In this document: positions 39,310-50,832 of the stretch, piece after piece
Layout: each line of letters opens with the position of its first letter
Position numbering within the stretch: position 1 is the stretch's first letter
Assembly: GCF_002896875.1 (NCBI RefSeq)
Contig: NZ_CP023278.1
Location: 1,922,001 to 1,986,000, forward strand
Length of the DNA: 64,000 nucleotides
Origin: Nostoc sp. CENA543
GTDB taxonomy: Bacteria > Cyanobacteriota > Cyanobacteriia > Cyanobacteriales > Nostocaceae
Direction: 5' to 3'
Position numbers and translations under genes: made by a program
The notes under the pieces: model-generated
Databases searched by the model: none
Seen by the model: only the letters and a program-made list of their open reading frames with translations
What the model was told of the DNA's origin: nothing

Positions 39310-39690
39310 ATGAAATACTTTTATATCAGCTTAGTCTGTCTTGTGAGTGCGATCGCAGTTAGCCCAAGTGCCTATGCTAACGAAGAAAATCCCCAGGAAA
39401 TGGTGAGTGAACGTCATGAAGCCGCGACTTTGTTAACAGAACCAGTCAGCATCAATAGTCAGTGGCATCATGGCAATAACCTGCAAAATACTGCCACTTC
39501 CATTTCAGTCGCACAAGATCCACAATGTCAATCCTTAAACCCCTTAGAATTTCTCGAAAATCCTGATGCTATTGTGAAAAAATGCCAAGAGTTACGCAAT
39601 AATCAAATCATACAACGAACGGAACCCGTTGAGTATCTCAAGGTTCCTCGTCTAGATTCTGGCTTAAAGCTAACTGTGACTAAATTTTAA
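39310..39690 (+). CDS. small exported protein whose 3' end lies in the element attachment repeat
   Basis: The 126-aa product has a clear signal peptide (YFYISLVCLVSAIAVSPSAYA, cut likely after AYA) and a mature part with two cysteines (DPQCQSL, KKCQEL) and no recognised domain. A GAGG ribosome site precedes the ATG. Its last eight codons and stop lie in the 130-bp repeat at 39667-39796. The same codons recur at the right end of the element, so excision or insertion leaves this gene unchanged. Before insertion its 3' end would have overlapped that of the YdcF gene tail-to-tail by 11 bases. Confidence 0.72.
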   Translation: MKYFYISLVCLVSAIAVSPSAYANEENPQEMVSERHEAATLLTEPVSINSQWHHGNNLQNTATSISVAQDPQCQSLNPLEFLENPDAIVKKCQELRNNQIIQRTEPVEYLKVPRLDSGLKLTVTKF

Positions 39691-39796
39691 ATATCAGGTA
39701 GACAAAATAAAAATAAGTTTCACGCATTAAAAAAGGTATTTGACTTTGTAAACTACGATAACGGGTAGTAGGTGTAGGTGATGGATAAGCATCTAT
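39667..39796. repeat. attL: 130-bp direct repeat at the left end of the integrated element
   Basis: It is identical base for base with 50229-50358. It contains the last eight codons of the small exported protein and, on the minus strand, a copy of the last 39 codons of the YdcF gene. Upstream of that copy, in the element, the YdcF frame hits a stop, so the left copy is a silent 3' fragment. Confidence 0.93.
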
Positions 39797-39883
39797 CTAC
39801 TCGGTTACTCCCGTAACTGAGAGAGTAACAAAACGGTTGTGTAGACTTAGATAAGGGTGGTGGCTACTCATTTGGCTACCACT

Positions 39884-41026
39884 ATGAAACAAAGAAACAA
39901 ACGCGGTACAGTAGGAATTGAAACCAAACAAGGTAAGTTGCGTTTAAGACTACCTAGAACAATTTGTAACGTAAATTGTCGATACATCTCTACGGGTTTA
40001 GACGATACACCAGATAACCGTCGGAAGGTACAAGTCACAGCTTGGCAGATAGAAGAAGATATCCAAAACGGGAAGCTTGACCCAACATTATCACGGTATA
40101 AGTTTAACCAACCTAGTGTCATCATTACACGTATAAAAGATGAGCCAGACTTGCAACAGCTTTGGGCAGCTTATTGTGAATATAGACAACCATTAGTAGC
40201 GTATACTACCTACAAACAAAAATACTTAACCCACTACGCCAACCATATACAACGCTTACCATCACATAAGCTTACCGACTCTAAAAATATCAGACATTAC
40301 CTTGTCACTACGTATTCTCAAGACATAGCCAAACGGGTTTTAATTCAGTTAAACGCTTGCTGTAAATGGGCATTAGCTGAGGGTTTAATAGATAACAACC
40401 CGTTTGTCGGTATGGCTAATGAGTTGTCATATAAGTGGTCATCAGATGCAATAGACCCGTTTACGTTCTCAGAGCGTGACGCTATTCTCAACGCTTACCG
40501 AGAACACCATACATACAGTCATTACTACAACTTCATCTGTTTTCTTTTCTACACTGGTTGCCGACCAGGTGAAGCCTGTGCATTAAAGTGGCGATACATC
40601 AGTGATAAATATATTCTGTTTGCGGAAACTTGGAACGCTCGTTATCAACTCACAAAACAAACAAAGACAGGTAAAAGCAGACGCTTTCCTATTAACGAGC
40701 AACTACGAGCGTTGCTCGACAGTGTAAAGCTAACGTCAAGCTATTCACCTGACTCATACTTATTTACAACCCATTATCACCACAAACCTATAAGTAATGA
40801 ACGAATAACCTATCTGCTGGGTTGGCGCGAGATAGTTAACGGTTTGGTAGATGTTGGTTTAGTTGCTAGATACCGTCCGGTTTACAACACTCGTTCTACA
40901 TTTATTAGCCTCACTTTAGAAGCTGGGTTAACGGTTTCACAGGTTGCCTCCCTAGTTGGGAATACTCCACAGGTCTTACTCCGCCATTACGCATCATCTC
41001 AAGTGAAAGATGTACCTGTGTTTTAA
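39884..41026 (+). CDS. tyrosine recombinase / integrase with Arm DNA-binding domain
   Basis: The gene lies 87 bases inside attL, the usual position of the integrase. The 380-aa protein has an N-terminal Arm-type domain (RGTVGIETKQGKLRLRLPR), a core-binding domain and a catalytic domain. It has Arg227 in CRPGEAC, Arg337 in YNTRSTF and the nucleophile Tyr369 in LLRHYAS. In box II the usual first His is Asn (NTR) and the later His/Trp position is Asn in LVGNTPQ, as in some phage-type integrases. I chose ATG at 39884; GTG at 39857 is an alternative. It is the best candidate for site-specific integration at the YdcF 3' end. Confidence 0.87.
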   Translation: MKQRNKRGTVGIETKQGKLRLRLPRTICNVNCRYISTGLDDTPDNRRKVQVTAWQIEEDIQNGKLDPTLSRYKFNQPSVIITRIKDEPDLQQLWAAYCEYRQPLVAYTTYKQKYLTHYANHIQRLPSHKLTDSKNIRHYLVTTYSQDIAKRVLIQLNACCKWALAEGLIDNNPFVGMANELSYKWSSDAIDPFTFSERDAILNAYREHHTYSHYYNFICFLFYTGCRPGEACALKWRYISDKYILFAETWNARYQLTKQTKTGKSRRFPINEQLRALLDSVKLTSSYSPDSYLFTTHYHHKPISNERITYLLGWREIVNGLVDVGLVARYRPVYNTRSTFISLTLEAGLTVSQVASLVGNTPQVLLRHYASSQVKDVPVF

Positions 41027-41173
41027 CCATTCAACTTTTAGCGTTATCAACAAATAACCATAGACCCTCATCTATGAGAAACGCTGTAATGACAGTTTAT
41101 CGTTAGTGAATTGTAAAGCTGTCGTGTCGAGTTGGGGTTACTCACACATTAGTAAACGTTAATAGGAGTGACC

Positions 41174-41374
41174 ATGCTGGTTAACCCACAACAAAAGACA
41201 ACTGTATGTGACATCGTTGTTTCCGTCCGTCTTCCCAAGACCGATGCAGAGTTATTAGAAACTTTGGTTGCTAATGCTAAGGCTCAAGGTTTGGTTAATA
41301 GTAAAGCTTCATTTATTCGATATGTCTTGAATGACTATGTGAACCGTCATGCTGATGTTTTGGAGGTGGCATAA
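41174..41374 (+). CDS. small ribbon-helix-helix-like protein
   Basis: The 66-aa protein has a beta strand (VCDIVVSVRLPK) followed by two helices (ELLETLVANAKAQG and ASFIRYVLNDYVNRH), the layout of ribbon-helix-helix DNA-binding proteins. AGGAG lies five bases before the ATG at 41174; a GTG two codons earlier overlaps that site. The stop directly abuts the next ATG, so it is in an operon with the HNH and primase genes. It may repress them or act as a copy-control or excision factor; that is inference. Confidence 0.68.
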   Translation: MLVNPQQKTTVCDIVVSVRLPKTDAELLETLVANAKAQGLVNSKASFIRYVLNDYVNRHADVLEVA

Positions 41375-41851
41375 ATGAACCCCCAACAAAGCATTGTTGA
41401 AACCGACGAAACTATCCAGGTTAATAACCGTGATGCTGAAGTTTGGCGACCAATACCAGGATATGAAGGGCAATATGAAGTCTCAAATATGGGTCGGGTA
41501 GCTTCACTCAACTACTCACGCCAAAAGAAACGACAGGTTTTAAAACCACGACCAGAACGCGGTTATCTAAAGGTCACTTTATACAACAAACACCACTCTA
41601 AACAGTGGAAGGTTCATCAACTTGTATTACTAGCCTTTGTTGGTGAACGCCCAAAACAATTAGTCACCGACCATATTAACCGAGTCAAGACTGATAACCG
41701 ACTGGCTAACCTGCGTTACGTCAGCCGTTCTGAGAACGCACGTAACACTGACCGCTATCTATACAAACAAATAACCCACAAGAAGCAGCTAACTTCTTAT
41801 GGGTTAACAACAACAGAAACAACAACAACAACACCCAACGCTATAAATTGA
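41375..41851 (+). CDS. NUMOD4-HNH endonuclease
   Basis: The 158-aa protein carries a NUMOD4 DNA-binding motif (EVWRPIPGYEGQYEVSNMGR) and an HNH nuclease domain (VHQLVLLAFVG, TDHINRVKTDNRLANLRYV), the layout of phage and plasmid homing-type HNH enzymes. Conserved His and Asn residues of the nuclease are present. It is a free-standing gene directly between the RHH gene and the primase, not inside an intron that I can see. It could nick at the origin, or be a homing nuclease riding on the element. Confidence 0.88.
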   Translation: MNPQQSIVETDETIQVNNRDAEVWRPIPGYEGQYEVSNMGRVASLNYSRQKKRQVLKPRPERGYLKVTLYNKHHSKQWKVHQLVLLAFVGERPKQLVTDHINRVKTDNRLANLRYVSRSENARNTDRYLYKQITHKKQLTSYGLTTTETTTTTPNAIN

Positions 41852-41860
41852 AAACATAGG

Positions 41861-43957
41861 ATGTATATGTTGCACAACAATTCTACATTAACACAGTCTT
41901 GTGAAACTGCCAACAGCTTTTTAAAACTGCTAGGTGAAACGCCTTACTTGTTCCAAACATTTGATGACAACAGTAAACGAAAAGATAAGAGTTTAACCCG
42001 CCAATTCTATGGCTCACTTGATGAACATTGGGATGAGTTATTAGCGTTAAATAACAAAGGTGCAGGTATCTTTGTAACGGTTAACGTAACCGACGGAAAC
42101 AACCGTAAGGCTGAGAATATAACAGCCGTCCGAGCGTTGTTTATCGACTGTGATAACGGGCTACCTGACGAATTTCACCTAACCCCAACGATGGTTATTC
42201 ATAGCAGTAAACCCGACAAAGGTCACGCCTATTGGGTGTTAAATGAACCATCGAATGATGTTGATAAATTCCCTCAAAAACAACAGCAACTTATCAAGCA
42301 TTACGGTAGTGATAAGAGCGTTCATGATAGGTCAAGAGTGATGAGGTTGCCAGGGTTTCTACACATAAAGGGTGAACCAACATTGGTGACATTTCAACAC
42401 ATTGGTAAACACTATGAGTCGATGGGTGAAGTCACATCAGCATTACCAAAACAACCAGCTAAGACAACATCATCAACTCATAAACCAATTACACATATAA
42501 CACCACCAACGCCTGCCACATCACCTGAATTTCAAGCATTATTAGCCTCGTTACTGACGGCTGGAGAGGGCGAACGGAACAACACATTAAACCGTGTGGC
42601 ATTCGAGGCGGGTAAGCTTGTGCAGTCAGGGAAGATAACAGCCGATGTTGCTCGTCAACAACTAACCAGCGTTGCTCTTATGATAGGTTTGGGTGAGGCT
42701 GAGATAGATGCCACACTAACCAGTGGGTTAACTGCTGGTATAAATAAACAAACGAATGTCAACACTAACAACAAAAGTAAAGTGAATATAGTAGTTGATG
42801 TTGTTAACGCCGAAAAAAGTCATCTGTCGTGGGATGTTTACAAAGGTATTCCACTATATGACGGTAAACATATTGACTTACGCGAGTTACGGCTTGACCT
42901 ATGTGTTAAGTATGAAGTTGACCTTAACCGTGATGACTTTAAAGACGCGGTAGAGGTGGTTGCCAAACGCAATTCATACAACCCAGTAGAGACTTATTTA
43001 ACCAGTCTCGACACTACCACCCCAACAACTGGATACATTCAACAACTTAGTGAGATGTTAGGGTTAGAAACTGACATCGAACGTGTTTATCTCCGTAAGT
43101 TTTTGATGGCTTCCGTCGCGCGTGGTTTAAAACACGGGTGTAAATTCGATAACGTCGTCATCTTCCAGGGTAAACAGGGTGTTGGTAAGACTACGTTTTT
43201 TGAGGTGTTGTTTGGTGAGGAGTTATTTGCAACCGCACCGAATGACGGCAACGAACGTGATATTTTAGCTGTATGCCATAGCCACTGGTGTATTGAGTTT
43301 GGCGAGTGGGAGCGTTTCAATACAAAACGTGAGCAGTCGGAAATAAAGAATTTCATCACTAAACAACGTGATGATATGCGTCTACTTCACACTGACTACA
43401 ACACAGAACGAAAGCGAAAGTTTGTCATTGTGGGTACAACTAATAAAGACCAGTTCCTAGTCGATGAAACCGGAAGCCGTAGGTATTGGGTATGCCGTAT
43501 AAGAACACCACGAATAGATATGACGTGGCTTGCAAAACATCGTGATGCTATATGGGGTGAGGCTTATAACGCATACCTAGCCGATGAACCTTGGTGGTTA
43601 GATGAATTAAATGAAACACTACAACACCGACATAACCAACAGTTTAATGAGTCGTCATCGTTAGACGAGGCTATTGTTGAGTGGTTAGCTGGTCGATACA
43701 CTGCTGATGGTGGTGTTAGTTTTAAACCGTCGATGAATGGTAAGCTTTCAACACGATACATACTAACCAATGTCATCGGCTCAAAACTGTCTGATGGTGG
43801 TTTAGCTACAAAGGAACGAGATGTAAAGAAAGCGTTGGCTCGGTTAGGTTTCGTCTCAAAACAGCGTAGGTGTAACGGTGTTAAGGGTTACTATTGGGAA
43901 CACCCAGACATCAGCCAACTCGTAGCGGTGAGTGACGAAACTGAGGCGTTATTCTAA
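41861..43957 (+). CDS. RepB-type primase fused to VirE-like helicase (replication protein)
   Basis: The 698-aa protein probably initiates replication of the element. The N-terminal part (about residues 1-190) resembles RepB-type primases, with ALFIDCDNG as the likely metal-binding acidic motif, IHSSKPDKGHAYW and DRSRVMRLPGFLH. A linker follows, then a VirE/D5-like superfamily 3 type ATPase with Walker A Lys443 (FQGKQGVGKTT), WCIEFGEWERF and VGTTNKDQFLVDETGSRRYW. A C-terminal winged-helix-like region ends the protein. Such primase-helicases drive replication of satellites and cryptic plasmids. An inverted repeat terminator follows at 43993. Confidence 0.87.
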   Translation: MYMLHNNSTLTQSCETANSFLKLLGETPYLFQTFDDNSKRKDKSLTRQFYGSLDEHWDELLALNNKGAGIFVTVNVTDGNNRKAENITAVRALFIDCDNGLPDEFHLTPTMVIHSSKPDKGHAYWVLNEPSNDVDKFPQKQQQLIKHYGSDKSVHDRSRVMRLPGFLHIKGEPTLVTFQHIGKHYESMGEVTSALPKQPAKTTSSTHKPITHITPPTPATSPEFQALLASLLTAGEGERNNTLNRVAFEAGKLVQSGKITADVARQQLTSVALMIGLGEAEIDATLTSGLTAGINKQTNVNTNNKSKVNIVVDVVNAEKSHLSWDVYKGIPLYDGKHIDLRELRLDLCVKYEVDLNRDDFKDAVEVVAKRNSYNPVETYLTSLDTTTPTTGYIQQLSEMLGLETDIERVYLRKFLMASVARGLKHGCKFDNVVIFQGKQGVGKTTFFEVLFGEELFATAPNDGNERDILAVCHSHWCIEFGEWERFNTKREQSEIKNFITKQRDDMRLLHTDYNTERKRKFVIVGTTNKDQFLVDETGSRRYWVCRIRTPRIDMTWLAKHRDAIWGEAYNAYLADEPWWLDELNETLQHRHNQQFNESSSLDEAIVEWLAGRYTADGGVSFKPSMNGKLSTRYILTNVIGSKLSDGGLATKERDVKKALARLGFVSKQRRCNGVKGYYWEHPDISQLVAVSDETEALF

Positions 43958-43992
43958 ACCCAGATAACCCATACTCTTTATATTTAACATAC

Positions 43993-44025
43993 AAACCCCT
44001 ATGACTAACGTTGTTGTAGGGGTTT
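43993..44025 (+). terminator. probable terminator after the primase-helicase gene
   Basis: An 8-bp perfect stem (AAACCCCT / AGGGGTTT) closes a 17-base loop 36 bases after the primase stop. Only a short AT-rich tail follows. Confidence 0.5.
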
Positions 44026-44111
44026 ATTAATGTGAGTCTACGTAACATCACTTATGCTTGTGTAGTTTAACGTCGTTTACGTATGCTATGTTTACATCTG
44101 TCTGGCTCACC

Positions 44112-44530
44112 ACAGGACACGCTTAGAACAGACTGGGTTTTGGCTATACTGAGATGTGCGCCTATATGATGTCGTCCGAATTTTGTACACATGACAGGAC
44201 AGACAAGACAGAAGCTGTATGTGTTACACAGCAAGGGTTATAGTTATTAACACTATTGTGACTTGTCTACGTATGTCTTGCCACTACCATGCTACAGGAC
44301 ACCTCTAAAACTATTGCTGTGTATGGTTTTGATATATGTGCCGTCCTGTGTCCTGTCACTTTTTTTAATTTTAGTATATAGAACAGTAACAGTAGTATGT
44401 ATATAAAGCTGAAATTTTGACAGGACAGACAAGACAGCAGGCGCAAACGCTTAACTGGTAAGGGTTAGAGGGTGTCCTGTCACTCACAAAACCTACAGGA
44501 CACAACAAGACACAGGACAGGACACAACAT
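44112..44530. other. AGGACA-rich repeat region, candidate replication origin
   Basis: The 576-base gap between the replication gene and the minus-strand trio contains at least ten AGGACA/TGTCCT motifs. The 19-base sequence GACAGGACAGACAAGACAG occurs exactly twice (44193-44211 and 44419-44437). Other copies include 44112-44120, 44294-44301, inverted copies in 44343-44360 and 44472-44484, and a cluster at 44493-44525. Direct and inverted copies beside a replication gene look like iterons. No protein gene is seen here. Confidence 0.6.
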
Positions 44531-44533
44531 CAT

Positions 44534-44737
44534 CTACGTATGTGGTTGGTCTGGTTGTCTGATGCGTTCATACTCACTGTTTTCTTTGTAATGGTCTGTA
44601 TGCTGGTAGTAGCGTAGTGACTCTGTGGCGTGTTGTAGAGCATAGATGACCGCTAGGTATTCAACACTGTCAGGGTCGAGTGTAGACTTGTAATACATTA
44701 GCCGGTCTATGTAGTATCCTATGTGTAGGTGAAGCAT
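44534..44737 (-). CDS. small element protein, paralogue A
   Basis: The 67-aa product shares a pattern with the protein at 44943-45146: YK-(A/S)-TL-(D/E)-P-(D/E)-S, a central helix, then H-(K/T)-E..(S/T)-(E/D)-YERLR or YERIR. The shared pattern on the same strand implies an ancient duplication. No known family, no signal peptide. The charged, helical composition suggests a small DNA- or protein-binding factor. Confidence 0.58.
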   Translation of the reverse strand: MLHLHIGYYIDRLMYYKSTLDPDSVEYLAVIYALQHATESLRYYQHTDHYKENSEYERIRQPDQPHT

Positions 44738-44751
44738 AAGTAATTTTTGTG

Positions 44752-44934
44752 TTAGTCATCATAACGTAGAGAATACAACGCAATTGCATTCAGGTAGTCT
44801 TTGTATGCGTTCGCGTATTCTAAACCTGCCTTACCCATTAAACTATAAGCTTCACGTTTACCATCACTATGTTCCACTAAAATTACACCAATTGATGGTA
44901 AATGCCGTATTACTTTTGGTAGTGGTTTACTCAT
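44752..44934 (-). CDS. small element protein between two paralogues
   Basis: The 60-aa product (LPKVIRHLPSIGVILVEHSDG, then a Tyr/Ala-rich helix) is not recognised. It is spaced 8 bases from the upstream and 14 bases from the downstream paralogue, so the three minus-strand genes are likely one transcript starting near 45146. Confidence 0.5.
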   Translation of the reverse strand: MSKPLPKVIRHLPSIGVILVEHSDGKREAYSLMGKAGLEYANAYKDYLNAIALYSLRYDD

Positions 44935-44942
44935 GAGGTTTA

Positions 44943-45146
44943 TCAGCTTTTAATATTCCTATACCTGAGACGTTCATAGTCAGTACACTCAGTGTGATGT
45001 CGTGTTAGGGTGTAAACAGTCATACTGCGTTTGGCATGACGAATAGCACCGCGTACTATTAACCACTCCTGTGACTCTGGTTCGAGTGTTGCCTTGTATT
45101 GTTCCAATGAGTCAACGAGTTGCTTGTATTGGTCAACAATGCTCAT
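44943..45146 (-). CDS. small element protein, paralogue B
   Basis: The 67-aa product is paralogous to the 44534-44737 product (YKATLEPESQEW, a helix, HHTECTDYERLRYR). It is the first gene of the minus-strand trio. A 12-bp hairpin and two GTATAAC motifs lie upstream of it. Function unknown; position beside the iteron-like region suggests replication or copy control. Confidence 0.58.
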   Translation of the reverse strand: MSIVDQYKQLVDSLEQYKATLEPESQEWLIVRGAIRHAKRSMTVYTLTRHHTECTDYERLRYRNIKS

Positions 45147-45841
45147 AATGTGTTGTTGAGTATTTATAACAACACTACTTTATAACCAACCCAACAAACA
45201 ACAACGACGCTGAGGTAAATACCATGCCCCTCAACGTCGTCGCTGGTGTGTATATAATGTATCGTGGTGTGCGTCCAAGACTATAGGGACGTTTTGTTAT
45301 GCTTGTATAACAGTATAACAACTATAGTTTAATAATGCAACTCTATGTGACACCTTACCCACTGTCACACTAAGCTATACCGACCATATACCAACCATAG
45401 TTAGCTGTTGGTTGGTAAACCAGTCACAATACTTGCTGCGTCTAATTCTGTCTGACCTTGTGGTGTTGCTCAATTGGTAGTAGTGATAGGTAACACCGTG
45501 GTTATATAACCCTTGTGTTTACGTTGACCGTCGCCTGTAACCGTTGGTATAACGCTAACAAACTCAACACCTGAAACCCTCTCTGTGTCTAGTGTTTACT
45601 GTGGAATTTGTTGTGCGTTCTTTCGATGAGTTTCATATAAAAATACGCGCCGTATTCCCCCTCTAACCCACCACCACGCACCATGAGCAAGCAACAGAGA
45701 GGTATCTGTAGTGATGCACAGTAGGTAGGGTTAACTGATAGTAGCTGGGTGTTTACCATGTCTAAATAATTTGCTGTAATAGTTGCATCGAAGGGCAGAG
45801 ACAACCACGCCACAACATACTGCCTCACAGGAATTGCAACT
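45147..45841. promoter_or_regulatory. divergent regulatory region with hairpins and GTATAAC repeats
   Basis: This 695-base gap separates the minus-strand trio from plus-strand genes. Positions 45204-45215 and 45229-45240 form a 12-bp stem (one G-U pair). GTATAAC occurs at 45305-45311, 45313-45319 and 45547-45553, the complement of the GTTATAC repeats at 47559-47590. A possible 56-codon minus-strand frame at 45589-45759 lacks a ribosome site and is not called. Confidence 0.5.
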
Positions 45842-46258
45842 ATGACTACTATCAAAGACCTCAAGACACAAGCTTCAGACCTCGGTTTATCCAACGAATA
45901 CGTCAAGAATTTTGGTAAGCTATCCGCCAAGGCAACGTGGCAGTTAGCTATTGACTCTCATCTGGCAACCACATCATCACAGCCAGTAGTCGATGAGCCA
46001 CCTAGCGTTGAACCTAACCAACCATCACCAGCATTAACCACACCACAACCAACGTCACACCAAACAAGCGAACACGCCCAACCTATGCTGTTGTTCCTGG
46101 TTTTGGTAGTAGTGATAACGACGCAGTTGATAACGACCGTCTTACCTATAGTCACCTACCTATACACGTCAGCAACCAACCACGTTAAACACCAGCGTGA
46201 GATACGCCGTAGACGTTCGCAGTGGTACGCGGAATTACGTCAACTCATGACCACATAA
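45842..46258 (+). CDS. SAP/Rho-N-like single-pass membrane protein
   Basis: The 138-aa protein begins with a helical segment like SAP or Rho N-terminal DNA/RNA-binding motifs (TIKDLKTQASDLGLS...FGKLSAKATW). A Pro/Thr/Gln-rich linker follows, then a hydrophobic membrane stretch at about residues 82-108, and a basic cytoplasmic tail (IRRRRSQWYAEL). AGGAA lies eight bases before the ATG. It may tether the element DNA or a complex to the membrane. No known full-length family is recognised. Confidence 0.62.
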   Translation: MTTIKDLKTQASDLGLSNEYVKNFGKLSAKATWQLAIDSHLATTSSQPVVDEPPSVEPNQPSPALTTPQPTSHQTSEHAQPMLLFLVLVVVITTQLITTVLPIVTYLYTSATNHVKHQREIRRRRSQWYAELRQLMTT

Positions 46259-46303
46259 AGCTAGCCCACAACTATTAGGGTAGCGAATAGGTATCAAGAC
46301 GTG

Positions 46304-47359
46304 ATGACAACATCGATACCCTACCCAATAACCACTGACGGTAGCCAACCATCATTACGGGTTGGCTCTCTACAACAGCCTACACATCACAAAACAGTAG
46401 TTTCGAGACAGGTACACAAAGTCATGACAACCACCCTCGCAGTCTATGAACCACAAGTAGTTATACCTACTAACCTGATACCCTTCCCTTCTACAGAACC
46501 AACGACAACCGAACGCGTCATTGAGTTGTGGTTAGTCGGGTTAAGTAATACCACGCGTGAACAATACAGCCGCGACATCCGACAGTTTCGAGCGTTCGCC
46601 AAGCTAACCGACTTTCGTAGCATCTCACCATTAACCTTCATTGCCTACGCTCAACACCTTGAGCAGACTTACGCTGTCGCTACTATTCGCCGTAAGCTGG
46701 CATCGCTCTCTAGCTTCTGTGCGTTTGCTGTCCGTCTGGGTTTCCTGACTGCTAACCCTATGGCGGCTGTCCGTAAACCGAAAGCATCGACCACGTTAGC
46801 GGGTAAGACACTAACCCAGCAACAAGTGTTCAGGATGTTGGACAGAACAGACGACCATCGAAACAGGTGTTTGCTTAAGGTGTTGTACAGTCTAGGTTTA
46901 CGCGTCAGTGAGGCTATCGGTTTACGTTGGTCTGACTTCACTGAGGTTAACCCTACTAAGACAACGGTCAGCGTGTTAGGCAAAGGTAGTAAGTATAGAA
47001 CGCTGGTTGTACCTCAGTCAGTCTGGTCTGAGTTGTTGGAGTTGCGAACAACTCAACAATATAACGGGGTTAATGACTACGTGTTTCAGTCGTACAGCAA
47101 CCGTTACCGAAAGCAGTCAGGTAAACAGCTAGACCGTTGTAACGCATCAAAGATAGTGAAAGCCTGTGCTGTTGCTGTTGGTTTACCTGAGTCAGTCTCG
47201 GCTCACTTTCTACGTCATGCCTGTGCATCCCATAGCCTAGCCAATGGTGCATCTATTCAACTGGTTAAAGAAACGCTAGGTCATGCCAACATCTCAACAA
47301 CTAACTGGTATCTAGAGGCTAACCCAGATGACTGCGCCTCACTGTACCTCAACGTTTAA
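46304..47359 (+). CDS. XerC/D-like tyrosine recombinase
   Basis: This is the second tyrosine recombinase of the element. The 351-aa protein has a SAM-like core-binding domain (EQYSRDIRQFRAFAKL) and a complete catalytic set: Arg in GLRVSEAIGL, a Lys in the VLGKGSKYR hairpin, His-x-x-Arg in SAHFLRHACASH, His in LGHANIST and the Tyr in NWYLE. Its N-terminal 45 residues are low-complexity. It could resolve multimers of the excised circle or be the actual integrase; the gene at 39884 is closer to the attachment site. Its stop overlaps that of the convergent small gene by four bases. Confidence 0.9.
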   Translation: MTTSIPYPITTDGSQPSLRVGSLQQPTHHKTVVSRQVHKVMTTTLAVYEPQVVIPTNLIPFPSTEPTTTERVIELWLVGLSNTTREQYSRDIRQFRAFAKLTDFRSISPLTFIAYAQHLEQTYAVATIRRKLASLSSFCAFAVRLGFLTANPMAAVRKPKASTTLAGKTLTQQQVFRMLDRTDDHRNRCLLKVLYSLGLRVSEAIGLRWSDFTEVNPTKTTVSVLGKGSKYRTLVVPQSVWSELLELRTTQQYNGVNDYVFQSYSNRYRKQSGKQLDRCNASKIVKACAVAVGLPESVSAHFLRHACASHSLANGASIQLVKETLGHANISTTNWYLEANPDDCASLYLNV

Positions 47360-47556
47360 GTATCATCATCTTTGGTGTTTATATCATCCATCGTGACTTG
47401 TGTTGTCGCATTACGTTCTAGCCATTCACTACATATCATCTCTAGTAGTTGAGCCATCGTTAGCCGTCGGTTCATTGCCTCAACTCTAAGTCTGATACGT
47501 AATGACTCTGGAAAATGTCTCACTACTAATTGTTCGGGTTTGTTAGCCACGTTCAC
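47356..47556 (-). CDS. Arc-like ribbon-helix-helix repressor candidate
   Basis: The 66-aa product has a beta strand (EQLVVRHFPESL) and two helices (RIRLRVEAMNRRL and MAQLLEMICSEWLERN) as in Arc/CopG repressors. It starts with GTG at 47556, only two bases from a cluster of four GTTATAY repeats (47559-47590), and is divergent from the 47636 gene. An autoregulated repressor controlling the coupled module is the natural inference. Confidence 0.62.
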   Translation of the reverse strand: MNVANKPEQLVVRHFPESLRIRLRVEAMNRRLTMAQLLEMICSEWLERNATTQVTMDDINTKDDDT

Positions 47557-47558
47557 CT

Positions 47559-47590
47559 GTTATACAGTTATATAAGTTATACTGTTATAC
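47559..47590. promoter_or_regulatory. four GTTATAY repeats, operator candidate
   Basis: GTTATAC, GTTATAT, GTTATAC and GTTATAC start at 47559, 47567, 47576 and 47584, i.e. at 8- to 9-base intervals, between the divergent RHH gene and the 47636 gene. The reverse complement GTATAAC recurs at 45305, 45313 and 45547. Confidence 0.6.
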
Positions 47591-47635
47591 AAAGGCATTA
47601 GATATGCCTCATTAACCTAGCCTAACAGTATAGAT

Positions 47636-47941
47636 ATGCCATCAGAAACCGATAGCAGTAGCGTTGTTAAGTCTCAGCAAAGTAAGACACAGGCTAAACG
47701 TCGTCATCGTCAACTAGTTGCACCACCGTCAAGTAACGGTGACGGACGCAAGACAGTTAACCTGAGTGTTTCAGTATCTCCCAACACTCAGACCGTTACA
47801 TCCATGCCTCTCTATTCAGTGTTCGCAACATCTCCAATTGCTGATGAATTGTTCATGAAAGTCAGTAAGTCAGTATGTATCAGCCTGACCACTAGACAAG
47901 CCTATAACACTAACATCAACGGTTATCTGTGCAGCTTATGA
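47636..47941 (+). CDS. hypothetical protein, first gene of the coupled module
   Basis: The 101-aa product has a basic, Ser/Gln-rich first half (KTQAKRRHRQL) and a structured second half (PLYSVFATSPIADELFMKV and onward). No known family is recognised. It overlaps the next start by an ATGA arrangement, so it heads the translationally coupled module ending with the ATPase. Confidence 0.52.
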   Translation: MPSETDSSSVVKSQQSKTQAKRRHRQLVAPPSSNGDGRKTVNLSVSVSPNTQTVTSMPLYSVFATSPIADELFMKVSKSVCISLTTRQAYNTNINGYLCSL

Positions 47942-48120
47942 ATAACCCTAATAACACTCCTAATACTGTCGTCTACCGTGATGACATGATGATAGATGAC
48001 CAGACTGTGACACTGACTGATACAAAGACAGATGTATCAGGTGATACTACAACCATCATCTATCAAGCCCCAACTACCGACTATGCAAACTACCTAGATA
48101 AACAGGTTGGTAAGCAATGA
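47938..48120 (+). CDS. small acidic protein of the coupled module
   Basis: The 60-aa product is rich in Asp and Thr (VVYRDDMMIDDQTVTLTDTK) and lacks a membrane segment. The ATG at 47938 overlaps the previous stop and its own stop overlaps the next start, both in ATGA. The family is not recognised. Confidence 0.5.
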   Translation: MNNPNNTPNTVVYRDDMMIDDQTVTLTDTKTDVSGDTTTIIYQAPTTDYANYLDKQVGKQ

Positions 48121-48263
48121 AAAGTGATGGAAATACCCTACTAGTTTTGATAGCTGTTGGTGTTGTTGGTTGGTTGTACCTGAGTGACCAGCGTTTAGAA
48201 TGCCAACGTGTTGAGGCGGAATACAAAGCCTATCAGAACGCTATCAAGGATGCACGACCATGA
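48117..48263 (+). CDS. 48-aa single-pass membrane protein of the coupled module
   Basis: The short product consists of one membrane helix (LLVLIAVGVVGWLYL) and a charged helical tail (RVEAEYKAYQNAIK). Its start overlaps the previous stop in ATGA and its own stop overlaps the next start in ATGA. The architecture resembles small phage or plasmid membrane accessory proteins. The family is not recognised. Confidence 0.55.
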   Translation: MKSDGNTLLVLIAVGVVGWLYLSDQRLECQRVEAEYKAYQNAIKDARP

Positions 48264-48559
48264 CAGACAAGCCCGAAATTGTTATTGACTTACCAACTGA
48301 AACTTATCAGCGACCAGTTGAACCGAAAGTCAGTGATAAACGGTGGTTATCTTTGTTGTTCAACTCTCTAATTACCTGCTATTCAACGGCTCTCTGTGTA
48401 CAGGTGTTGACGTTCATACCGCTAACACTTCCAGCATTGACTCAACTACCCAAGATAGCAGCCGTCATCATCATGGGCGTTGGTGCATGGTTGGCTTATC
48501 GCCGTCAACTCCCAGCGTTAACACTTTCCTTTGCTATCGGTTTACTCGTTGGTTTATGA
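48260..48559 (+). CDS. small membrane protein of the coupled module
   Basis: The 99-aa product has an acidic N-terminus and two to three membrane helices (LLFNSLITCYSTALCVQVL, LPKIAAVIIMGVGAWLAY, ALTLSFAIGLLVGL). ATGA overlaps tie it to the genes on both sides. It precedes the membrane ATPase and may be its partner. The family is not recognised. Confidence 0.6.
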   Translation: MTDKPEIVIDLPTETYQRPVEPKVSDKRWLSLLFNSLITCYSTALCVQVLTFIPLTLPALTQLPKIAAVIIMGVGAWLAYRRQLPALTLSFAIGLLVGL

Positions 48560-49815
48560 CACAACCACAATACCCAACCTCTCACATACGTTTACTACAC
48601 CGACTGTTGTTAACCACGGGTTTCTGTGCCACGTTAACGGCAGTCGTTTCTCTAGTTGGTGTGCCTCACGCTCTCACACAACAACGTGGTCTAAGTAAGG
48701 CTGTGTTATTAGCTTCTGGGTTATGTATCACAGTAGCGAGTAAGCGTCTAACATCGACATGGTTAGAGTTGGCTGACGTAACGGCTGACCTAGACCTACT
48801 TGACAGACGGGAGAACATAGCATGGTATCAGCGTGTTATCAGTGAGGTTAAAAACGTCACGGTCAAGTATAGCCAGCGTTGGCTAGATGACAACATCATT
48901 ACTGACCCTGTGACTTATTGGCTTAACACGGGCAAGAATGGTTTACCGTTGAAACACCTGCTCATCGTTGGTGGAACAGGTGATGGTAAGTCAACACTCA
49001 TTCAGGCGTTCGCATCACGGCTGATAGGTTGGCAGTTTCAAGTCTATGATGTTGACGGTACAGTTGATGACTGGCTGTTTGTTGAACAACAGCAACGGGT
49101 CTATGACTTAACAGCTATTGAGTCAGCTATGACCGATGACCTAGAGTTATTGGAACAACGAATACTACAACGCCGTGAGGTTGGTAAACGATGGACAGAT
49201 ACACCACGGCTCACCATAGCTGAGGAGTTACCAGCGTTGGTGTCATCGTCTGACACGGCTGCTAACTGGGTTGTTAGTCATGCCAAACGTGGACGTAAAC
49301 CACTATGCTTTATAGCAGCCATCGCACAGAACGACACCGTTAAGAACCTTGGGTTAGAGGGTGATGCTGACCTACGCGACAGTTGTTTTACGAGGGTATA
49401 CCTTGGCAGTAAAGCAAGAGAACGAGCAAGGAAACTAGGTAATGACGTGTTGTTAGCATGGTTAGAAGCATTTCCGCACGGTCGTTTTATTGTGGATGAT
49501 AAGCCGTGTGAGTGGGTTGTTAACAACTCCCAAGCATTGATAGACACTTCCCAAACTGGCACACTACCACCGTCATTACTTCCGCAAAGTTTACCAACAC
49601 AACACGATACCAACACGCCGAAAACCTCGGAAGCCTTGCAGGAAATAGGCGGAAATGGTTTTGCATCGTTGGTCAAGGATGCCAAAAACGCGGTACAGGA
49701 AGCCCGTGAGCGTGGTTGTAGCGATACGTACATCATTACTGAGGTTCTAGGGTTTAGCGGTCGGCGTTACGGCGAGGGTAAACGACTACTGGCGATGCTG
49801 GAAACCACCGAGTAA
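48556..49815 (+). CDS. membrane-anchored HerA/FtsK/TraD-type ATPase
   Basis: The 419-aa protein has two N-terminal membrane helices (about residues 14-36 and 48-68) and a cytoplasmic P-loop domain. Walker A is VGGTGDGKSTL with Lys145, Walker B is LTIAEELPAL, and FIAAIAQNDT resembles sensor motifs of HerA/FtsK-superfamily DNA pumps. The start is the ATG at 48556, in ATGA overlap with the preceding gene; the long frame upstream is only an open shadow. It could drive DNA transfer, partition or packaging of the element. No relaxase was found, so autonomous conjugation is not supported. Confidence 0.8.
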   Translation: MTQPQYPTSHIRLLHRLLLTTGFCATLTAVVSLVGVPHALTQQRGLSKAVLLASGLCITVASKRLTSTWLELADVTADLDLLDRRENIAWYQRVISEVKNVTVKYSQRWLDDNIITDPVTYWLNTGKNGLPLKHLLIVGGTGDGKSTLIQAFASRLIGWQFQVYDVDGTVDDWLFVEQQQRVYDLTAIESAMTDDLELLEQRILQRREVGKRWTDTPRLTIAEELPALVSSSDTAANWVVSHAKRGRKPLCFIAAIAQNDTVKNLGLEGDADLRDSCFTRVYLGSKARERARKLGNDVLLAWLEAFPHGRFIVDDKPCEWVVNNSQALIDTSQTGTLPPSLLPQSLPTQHDTNTPKTSEALQEIGGNGFASLVKDAKNAVQEARERGCSDTYIITEVLGFSGRRYGEGKRLLAMLETTE

Positions 49816-49863
49816 CTGTGCTATGATATGCTGTAACAGCAATTCAAAAGAGGGGTGAAGCCT

Positions 49864-50148
49864 ATGTCTAGAGGTGGTCACAGACTAGGAGCAGGACGCA
49901 AGAAGGGTACACCAGCCAGTAACCGAAAGTATGCTGATGTAGCGGACACTAGGTTGGTACGTGTGCCTGTTGGCTTCGATGAGGTAGCAGCAGTTAACAA
50001 CCTTGAGCAATTGCGCGTGCTGGTCGAGACGTGGCAGGCACAAGCGGATGAAGCTGCACGGGTCAGCAAGACTGGTACAACGCCACGCACGTATGACAAG
50101 GCGTTGCTATTGTTGGAAGAATTGAAACAAATGTTGCCACAACAGTAG
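49864..50148 (+). CDS. small GRKKG-motif DNA-binding-like protein
   Basis: The 94-aa product begins SRGGHRLGAGRKKG, a motif seen in small phage and plasmid DNA-binding proteins and at the start of some terminase small subunits. A helical C-terminal half follows (VETWQAQADEAARVS, ALLLLEELKQML). An AGGGG site lies about nine bases before ATG 49864. It is the last gene before attR. A role in DNA recognition or excision is inferred. A palindrome (ACTCTTATTTAAGAGT) lies at 50187-50202. Confidence 0.6.
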   Translation: MSRGGHRLGAGRKKGTPASNRKYADVADTRLVRVPVGFDEVAAVNNLEQLRVLVETWQAQADEAARVSKTGTTPRTYDKALLLLEELKQMLPQQ

Positions 50149-50228
50149 ACAATAGCTTTTGGCTACTGTTAGGCTACTCGTAAACCACTCTTATTTAAGA
50201 GTTGCACAACCAAAGGTCAGAATTACCT

Positions 50229-50358
50229 AAGCTAACTGTGACTAAATTTTAAATATCAGGTAGACAAAATAAAAATAAGTTTCACGCATTAAAAAAGGTA
50301 TTTGACTTTGTAAACTACGATAACGGGTAGTAGGTGTAGGTGATGGATAAGCATCTAT
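50229..50358. repeat. attR: 130-bp direct repeat at the right end of the element
   Basis: It is identical to 39667-39796. This copy supplies the real 3' end of the YdcF gene (last 39 codons). It also carries a displaced copy of the last eight codons of the small exported protein gene. Confidence 0.93.
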
Positions 50359-50832
50359 ACCTAAATCTCTAGCCATTAAGACAGCTCGCTTGAGATGTAA
50401 AGGATCACTCACAATGAGACACTTAGTAAATTGATGATGGGAAACTATTTCTCCCGCATTTTTAAGATTTTGGTAAGTTGTGCGTGAGAGTGTTTCTGTG
50501 AAAATATCTTCTGTTTTTACACCTTGTTCAACAGCGTAGTTTTTACCAACTACCGCTTCAGGAAGTTCATTTTTATCTCCTACTCCACCCGTGAAAATAA
50601 TCTTACTAACATCGCCTTTTTTATATAAATTAGTGGCGTGATGAATGCGTTCTCGAAACACTGGTGAAGGTGCTGTTTTCCAAACCGCCGCACCCAAGAC
50701 AATTGCTGCATCTGCCTTCAGATTTGGAGTATGATTGCCATACAAATAAATACTCACAGCAGTAGATGCGATCGCCACCAATAACGCAGACATCAAAGAT
50801 AGTAAAATAAAAATAAACTTTCTTTTCGTCAT
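50242..50832 (-). CDS. YdcF/SanA-type DUF218 membrane protein, target gene of the element
   Basis: The 196-aa protein has one N-terminal membrane helix (FIFILLSLMSALLVAIAST) and a DUF218 domain with ADAAIVLGAAVW, ERIHHATNLYKKGD, IIFTGGVGDKNELPEA, a SRTTYQN motif and VSDPLHLKRA. DUF218 proteins act in envelope or polysaccharide metabolism in a poorly defined way. The last 39 codons lie in the attachment repeat, and the gene is complete, so integration has not disrupted it. A separate copy of these 39 codons remains at attL. Confidence 0.9.
   Translation of the reverse strand: MTKRKFIFILLSLMSALLVAIASTAVSIYLYGNHTPNLKADAAIVLGAAVWKTAPSPVFRERIHHATNLYKKGDVSKIIFTGGVGDKNELPEAVVGKNYAVEQGVKTEDIFTETLSRTTYQNLKNAGEIVSHHQFTKCLIVSDPLHLKRAVLMARDLGIDAYPSPTPTTRYRSLQSQIPFLMRETYFYFVYLIFKI

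Follow-up and report, generated by a model that had tools for sequence, protein, structure and literature searches.

A recently inserted element of Nostoc sp. CENA543 with a predicted iteron origin and a candidate relaxase-free DNA pump found in HetR-positive cyanobacteria

FtsK-based systems such as that of pSAM2 move double-stranded DNA from cell to cell in mycelia without a relaxase or a type IV secretion system (as part of PMC3158045 describes). Actinomycete integrative and conjugative elements (AICEs) are recognised by an integrase with attachment (att) repeats, a replication protein of the RepSA, RepAM or Prim-Pol kind, and a Tra protein with an FtsK/SpoIIIE domain, and transfer of pSAM2 is abolished when replication is lost (excerpts of PMC3218068). 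Here we describe a 10.4-kb element of the cyanobacterium Nostoc sp. CENA543, contained in a stretch of 64,000 nucleotides, hereafter the window (bases 1,922,001–1,986,000 of contig C1, which has 6,990,729 bp, in a genome of 7.2 Mb), which we read, with evenly balanced confidence, as an integrative, self-replicating replicon with a relaxase-free DNA pump, AICE-like in its working but not an AICE. To our knowledge, the spread of relaxase-less plasmids and islands in filamentous cyanobacteria is an open question, as is the way in which a plasmid reaches each polyploid cell of a filament; a conserved operon with the fold of a DNA motor, seen only in the HetR-positive genomes of two samples, is a testable candidate.

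The element is a recent insertion in the chromosome. It lies between two direct repeats of 130 nt that are 100% identical, spaced 10,562 bp apart, and enclose 10,432 bp, and a blastn search of the host genome with the repeat returned two copies and no third. Four genomes of the same genus (G012, G010, G001, and G009) have an empty site that aligns with both sides of the insertion, with a single copy of the repeat, adjoining flanks, and no element, which argues for recent insertion at this position. The G012 site is 94% identical in the left flank, 97% in the right flank, and 96% in the repeat; the other three sites are more divergent. Because the two window copies are identical, while the G012 copy differs from them at 5 of 130 positions (96.15% identity), the insertion is probably recent and the element probably last bore this species' own version of the site. 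A sequence-only reading of this DNA had noted the perfect end repeats, had taken them to mean recent or actively maintained integration, and had proposed a search of related strains for a single-copy empty site; the comparison bears it out. Two gene ends lie in the repeat, the final 117 bp of a minus-strand DUF218/SanA-like gene and the final 24 bp of the plus-strand ORF39310 (ORF, open reading frame), so that the element parts two convergent 3′ ends. Both genes keep their stop codons because the element brings a copy of the SanA-like gene end. A tRNA or other known RNA was not found in the 64-kb window.

Related elements are located at tRNA-Cys. Those of L046 and L047 lie between 59- and 54-bp repeats with tRNA-Cys sequence (the tRNA was identified by eye), one of which adjoins an Int1 homologue; such homologues are close to an end repeat in L046, L047, L048, and L086. 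The elements of Westiellopsis prolifica IICB1 (L047/L094) and G016 (L046) share with ours Int1, VapE, an array, Xer2, the 66-aa protein, operon genes A, C, and D, the ATPase, and the N-terminus of the 138-aa protein, but differ in their site, in the distance between repeat starts (13.6 and 13.9 kb), in iteron sequence, and in a rearranged gene order with Int1 on the opposite strand.

The arrangement expected of an iteron replicon, short repeats and an A+T-rich region adjoining a predicted initiator gene, is present behind the primase-helicase gene, and the repeat occurs nowhere else in the window. Arrays of other sequence occupy the same position elsewhere: AGGTTAGG in L046 and L047, ACGGCATA in L085, and AGACTATC in L083. 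Tested against dinucleotide shuffles (p ≤ 0.005, the floor of 200 shuffles), 24 of 30 VapE genes, drawn from 59 matches listed and including the window's own, are each accompanied at the 3′ end by an 8-mer array of their own. The array directly follows the stop codon in the six closest loci (L116–L121, again with the window's own) and falls within the final 700 bp of the coding frame in 18 of 24 more distant ones (L122–L145, same host family), and none of the 28 upstream regions scored has a significant array. The misses are L130, L131, L133, L139, L142, and L143, with downstream sequence too short for scoring in L133, L139, and L143; downstream hits in L122 and L136 resemble GCGATCGC, which we take to be the common cyanobacterial word HIP1, and both loci are counted through their in-frame arrays. 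A conserved protein with repeats of variable sequence in a fixed position is what one would expect of an initiator that has an origin of its own, and VapE followed by an array resembles the origin of staphylococcal islands. We also considered the 8-bp repeats as a transfer locus of the TraB type, which is not favoured because the arrays trail VapE even in L083, a locus with no ATPase match. Integration and replication of the element are well supported, and the earlier proposal of an integrative replicon is supported by the empty sites of relatives, the related tRNA-Cys elements, and the array. The origin predicted where VapE genes end is a second result, directly testable in vectors.

A further new observation is a translationally coupled five-gene operon (47636–49815) that ends in an ATPase of FtsK/TcpA fold. 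Genes A, B, C, D, and the ATPase, with starts at 47636, 47938, 48117, 48260, and 48556, are linked by four ATGA overlaps; the ATPase frame is already open at 48343, and its start was set to 48556 because the overlap and the relatives point there. Profiles derived from these same loci were run on the same strand over the 3 kb that precede each of 45 distinct ATPase ORFs; they find gene A at 39, gene D at 30, gene C at 14, and at least one of the three at 43 (ORFs sharing their last 300 bases were merged, pieces of broken copies counted singly, and L051 counted across its contig ends). Gene A is not found at L048, L107, L115, L099, L101, and L114, the last three with 1,340 bp or less upstream, and none of 19 members of its family has a Pfam match. 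Integrated elements carry homologues of the operon, as do plasmids of Nostoc, Calothrix, and Tolypothrix, though not in every case with all five genes, and copies from the two settings are intermixed in an ATPase tree of 23 rows. The ratio of nonsynonymous to synonymous substitution rates between L046 and L047 is 0.06–0.38 over the seven genes tested, with the maximum in the 57-codon gene C. The open-licence literature searched holds no paper dedicated to the operon, judged by title or start of abstract.

The ATPase comprises an N-terminal helical hairpin with one predicted membrane helix, an FtsK/TcpA-like motor, and a C-terminal helical domain. When its predicted model was used in a fold search, TcpA and FtsK tied as closest matches, HerA motors were also found, and B204 scored lower; identity to TcpA of the Clostridium plasmid pCW3 is 16%. 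The HerA/FtsK-type assignment made from the sequence thus holds at the level of the predicted fold, though the Pfam cut-off is not reached. A sequence search of the PDB with the ATPase profile gave P-loop matches, with midasin at the top and HerA-type proteins weaker. Hydrophobic gene D has one helix above the hydropathy cut-off in the window copy and three in the L054 copy. ATPases of about 600 aa (G000 contigs C2, C4, and C6; G001 contigs C5, C7, C9, C10, and C11) match the profile weakly near the P-loop and are possibly another plasmid motor family.

A close plasmid parallel is pDU1 of Nostoc PCC 7524, with a homologous ATPase (37% over 306 aa) preceded, in the same order, by homologues of genes A and C. 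Unlike our element, pDU1 is a free plasmid of 6.4 kb, and tblastn of its copy L062 (G009) gave no VapE or Int1 match. The pDU1 origin is employed in cyanobacterial vectors (excerpt of PMC4379921). A cluster of seven TATAGACA lies near the pDU1 integrase gene (L075:5873–6343).

Distribution ties the ATPase to one kind of host. We searched 386 genomes of the phylum (E ≤ 1e-10, at most four first-look candidates scored per genome) and 166 of the order (E ≤ 1e-5, at most ten) with the ATPase profile, and called HetR with PF18460. The ATPase was found in 15 of the 386 genomes, all 15 within the 79 that are HetR-positive; outside the host's own family, seven of seven ATPase genomes are HetR-positive, against 37 of 344 overall (p = 1e-7). 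All 22 ATPase genomes of the order, six of which also belong to the phylum sample, likewise fall within its 95 HetR-positive genomes, and with a minimum of 60 bits 12 of 12 (phylum) and 11 of 11 (order) are HetR-positive. Mobile elements as such are not limited to these hosts, because 24 of 40 genomes with VapE in the phylum sample are outside the HetR list, a cross-count that presumes identical genomes in three phylum draws, whose identifiers agree where displayed. At least 23 ATPase loci carry names, all of filamentous genera or orders, among them Nostoc, Calothrix, Tolypothrix, Fischerella, Plectonema, and Okeania. HetR is said to be coextensive with PatX in filamentous cyanobacteria (excerpt of PMC12756182), and at least one exception occurs outside them (excerpt of PMC2821919). 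That the pump genes are seen only in hosts with this filament marker suggests movement of DNA from cell to cell along filaments.

We propose that Int1 would integrate the element site-specifically at the 3′ end of the SanA-like gene and that, after excision to a circle, the RepB-primase/VapE helicase would initiate replication at the array downstream of its own gene, with Xer2 likely resolving multimers. Genes A to D and the ATPase would form a membrane-bound DNA translocase of FtsK/TcpA fold, acting without a relaxase or a type IV secretion system, that would most likely pump the circle from one cell to the next, mainly within a filament or from filament to filament, as TraB and the Spd proteins do in mycelial Streptomyces. 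More generally, we suggest tentatively, and with the balance somewhat on the side of doubt, that filamentous cyanobacteria own a relaxase-free FtsK-type system by which circular double-stranded DNA would pass from cell to cell, both within a filament and from one filament to another; this would be a second instance, separate from that of mycelial actinomycetes, in which the five-gene pump would be carried by integrated elements and, partly or wholly, by small plasmids including pDU1. If DNA is indeed pumped from cell to cell, there would be two phyla in which FtsK-type transfer goes together with multicellularity.

Like AICEs such as pSAM2 and like the Streptomyces plasmid pIJ101, the element pairs an integrase, replication of its own, and an FtsK-type motor with a multicellular host and no recognised relaxase or type IV secretion. 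On pIJ101 a 1,947-bp gene, presumably tra, adjoins spdA and spdB opposite a GntR regulator. We compare the workings because labour is divided in the same way among unrelated parts: an integrase, a replicon, a motor co-translated with small genes, and a small regulator encoded divergently. The integrase and flanking att repeats of AICEs are present, but the host belongs to another phylum, replication would depend on a primase-VapE/iteron module (RepB_primase plus VapE-like domain, and not RepAM, PF12307, or Prim-Pol, PF09250; RepSA lacked a model of its own), and the motor, likened to TraB without sequence comparison, scores below the FtsK_SpoIIIE cut-off; because of the replication protein and this score we do not class the element as an AICE. 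TcpA differs in having a type IV-like secretion system as partner (excerpt of PMC5365140). TdtA of Thermus thermophilus, likened by description only, is also a HerA/FtsK-type ATPase of an integrated element and is required for DNA donation (same excerpt), but its operon additionally encodes a restriction enzyme and the nuclease NurA, it has no detected DNA-binding domain, and the recipient uses competence machinery.

Several points weigh against a replicon with a DNA pump. The assembly holds the integrated form alone, with excision, circle, replication, and transfer unobserved; the window ATPase scores 17.5 bits against FtsK_SpoIIIE (PF01580), where the cut-off is 24; and a TraB structure is not among the fold matches listed. 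The p-values are overstated because the genomes are phylogenetically non-independent, the ATPase profile was made from Nostocales-like sequences only, some distribution matches are partial and to longer ATPases, and weak homologues could escape because few candidates per genome were scored. It is conceivable that the 8-bp repeats act as a transfer locus and not as an origin. Synechococcus PCC 7335 is unicellular. HetR, which is a proxy, is also present in that strain (excerpt of PMC2821919).

The same evidence bears on four other explanations. The operon might serve stable inheritance, its FtsK-like motor driving Xer2 recombination or clearing element DNA from closing septa, which we consider unlikely but worth weighing. 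FtsK is tied with TcpA as nearest fold, a motor beside the XerC/D-like recombinase of the element could serve segregation (a further point against a pump), the annotated pDU1, Tolypothrix 7601, and Calothrix 336/3 plasmids encode a short site-specific integrase, and restriction to filamentous hosts is compatible with such a role; however, known FtsK-Xer action has no need of four small co-translated genes, and unicellular cyanobacteria have septa and plasmids too. Rather unlikely is a mobilizable element with an unrecognised relaxase and a TcpA-like coupling protein that hijacks type IV secretion machinery encoded by a different element. The top fold match is a conjugation coupling protein, and integrative mobilizable elements are a large known class (excerpts of PMC5704250 and PMC5357655), but a relaxase, as expected of such elements or of integrative and conjugative elements, is not found at the curated cut-off among the 16 element genes scanned, and all seven plasmid records bearing the ATPase are typed non-mobilizable. 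Confinement to HetR-positive hosts would also be unexpected of a hijacker, because type IV conjugative systems are present in Cyanothece and Acaryochloris, among other cyanobacteria (part of PMC3158045).

An improbable alternative is a phage satellite in which the ATPase packs DNA into helper particles. Integrase, primase-helicase, and predicted iteron origin are as in staphylococcal islands, but relatives of the ATPase number none in 50,697 phage records and none confirmed among viral contigs, the B204 fold ranks below TcpA, FtsK, and HerA, and capsid, terminase, and portal families are absent at the Pfam cut-off, as are packaging or capsid-interference genes there and in PHROGs at E ≤ 0.01, where matches fall only in integration, primase/helicase/polymerase, HNH, and unknown families. 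At weaker scores, the P-loop region of the ATPase matches a terminase profile (E 0.024), a 66-aa ORF matches a head-morphogenesis profile (E 0.023), and gene B matches a viral VP4 model (E 0.17). The sequence-only reading had left replicon and satellite side by side; the replicon stands, and with no packaging or capsid-interference gene recognised the satellite is less supported. It is very improbable that the element interrupts a gene and is excised during development, as the nifD element is: although the host has heterocystous kin, the element has a tyrosine recombinase, and an ATPase of unclear function, set beside ours by description only, is reported solely from interruption elements (excerpt of PMC4874684), no coding gene is interrupted here, both neighbours ending within the repeat with a stop codon, and related elements sit at tRNA-Cys. 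The nifD-element ATPase of that excerpt might belong to the family of the window ATPase.

The remaining gene content largely agrees with what had been read from the letters (Table 1). Pfam confirms the two tyrosine recombinases, the RepB-type primase-helicase, and the HNH nuclease, and capsid, terminase, and relaxase are indeed unrecognised at its cut-off. Of the small regulators claimed, the small proteins exist, but only one matches a ribbon-helix-helix family, weakly and below the cut-off; and of the uncharacterised small genes, which do lack families, those preceding the ATPase had been missed as a conserved operon with it. The start codon of Int1 is uncertain, with an ATG at 39884. ORFs similar to the 66-aa protein occur in L045, L046, L047, L048, L080, and L084, and the GTTATAC-type repeats beside its gene partly recur, inverted, at 45303–45335. 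A defence system was considered and rejected: PADLOC, run on five proteins, matched the ATPase weakly (mad8, E 2e-4) and called the HNH gene a homing endonuclease.

Table 1. Coordinates of the element and its flanking genes in the window.
Feature	Position	Strand	Evidence or remark
Host gene ORF39310, 126 aa, left of element	39310..39690	+	Pfam match none
Left end repeat (attL side), 130 bp	39667..39796		repeat search, blastn, empty-site alignment
Int1, tyrosine recombinase with Arm DNA-binding domain, likely integrase	39857..41026	+	PF00589 E 8e-11, PF12167 E 1e-5
68-aa protein, possibly small regulator or directionality factor	41168..41374	+	no Pfam family; unknown PHROG matched weakly
NUMOD4 + HNH nuclease, homing-endonuclease type	41375..41851	+	Pfam, PADLOC
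RepB-type primase + VapE-like helicase, replication protein	41861..43957	+	PF05272 E 4e-61, PF16793 E 5e-9
Iteron array, predicted replication origin	44112..44524		nine ACAGGACA, both orientations
A+T-rich stretch within array, predicted unwinding region	44360..44419		80% A+T in 44360–44399
Three small ORFs (44534–44737, 44752–44934, 44943–45146)	44534..45146	-	family none
138-aa protein	45842..46258	+	N-terminal part recurs beside Xer2 homologues in L046, L047, L079, L084
Xer2, XerC/D-like tyrosine recombinase	46301..47359	+	PF00589
66-aa protein, divergent from ATPase operon	47359..47556	-	RHH_10 E 0.022, below curated cut-off
GTTATAC-type repeats between divergent genes, candidate operator	47559..47592
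Operon gene A, 101 aa, basic N-terminus, uncharacterised family	47636..47941	+	upstream homologues at most ATPase ORFs
Operon gene B, 60 aa	47938..48120	+	ATGA overlap with A
Operon gene C, 48 aa, one predicted membrane helix	48117..48263	+
Operon gene D, 99 aa, hydrophobic	48260..48559	+
Operon gene E, ATPase, 419 aa	48556..49815	+
97-aa protein	49855..50148	+	Pfam family none; remnant L080 has a copy 89% identical over 80 aa
Right end repeat (attR side), 130 bp	50229..50358		repeat search, blastn, empty-site alignment
Host gene, DUF218/SanA-like, 3′ end is the integration site	50242..50832	-	PF02698 E 2e-29

The nearest relative, judged by Int1 (66%), Xer2 (90%), and a short HNH stretch (86%), is spread over two contigs of G072 (L079 and L080), has only partial VapE and ATPase matches, and is probably a decayed remnant. 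The host genome itself has a second integrated element of about 8.6 kb (L086:10572–19210, C1 ~3,321,600–3,330,200), which is bounded by 46-bp repeats containing tRNA-Cys sequence and has no VapE or ATPase match; it encodes an integrase resembling Int1 (43%) and contains 8-mer clusters of twelve AGGTAACT and eight ATGGTATC. Contig C41 of G152 (L051), of 14,094 bp, is probably a circular plasmid, because the operon appears to run across its contig ends.

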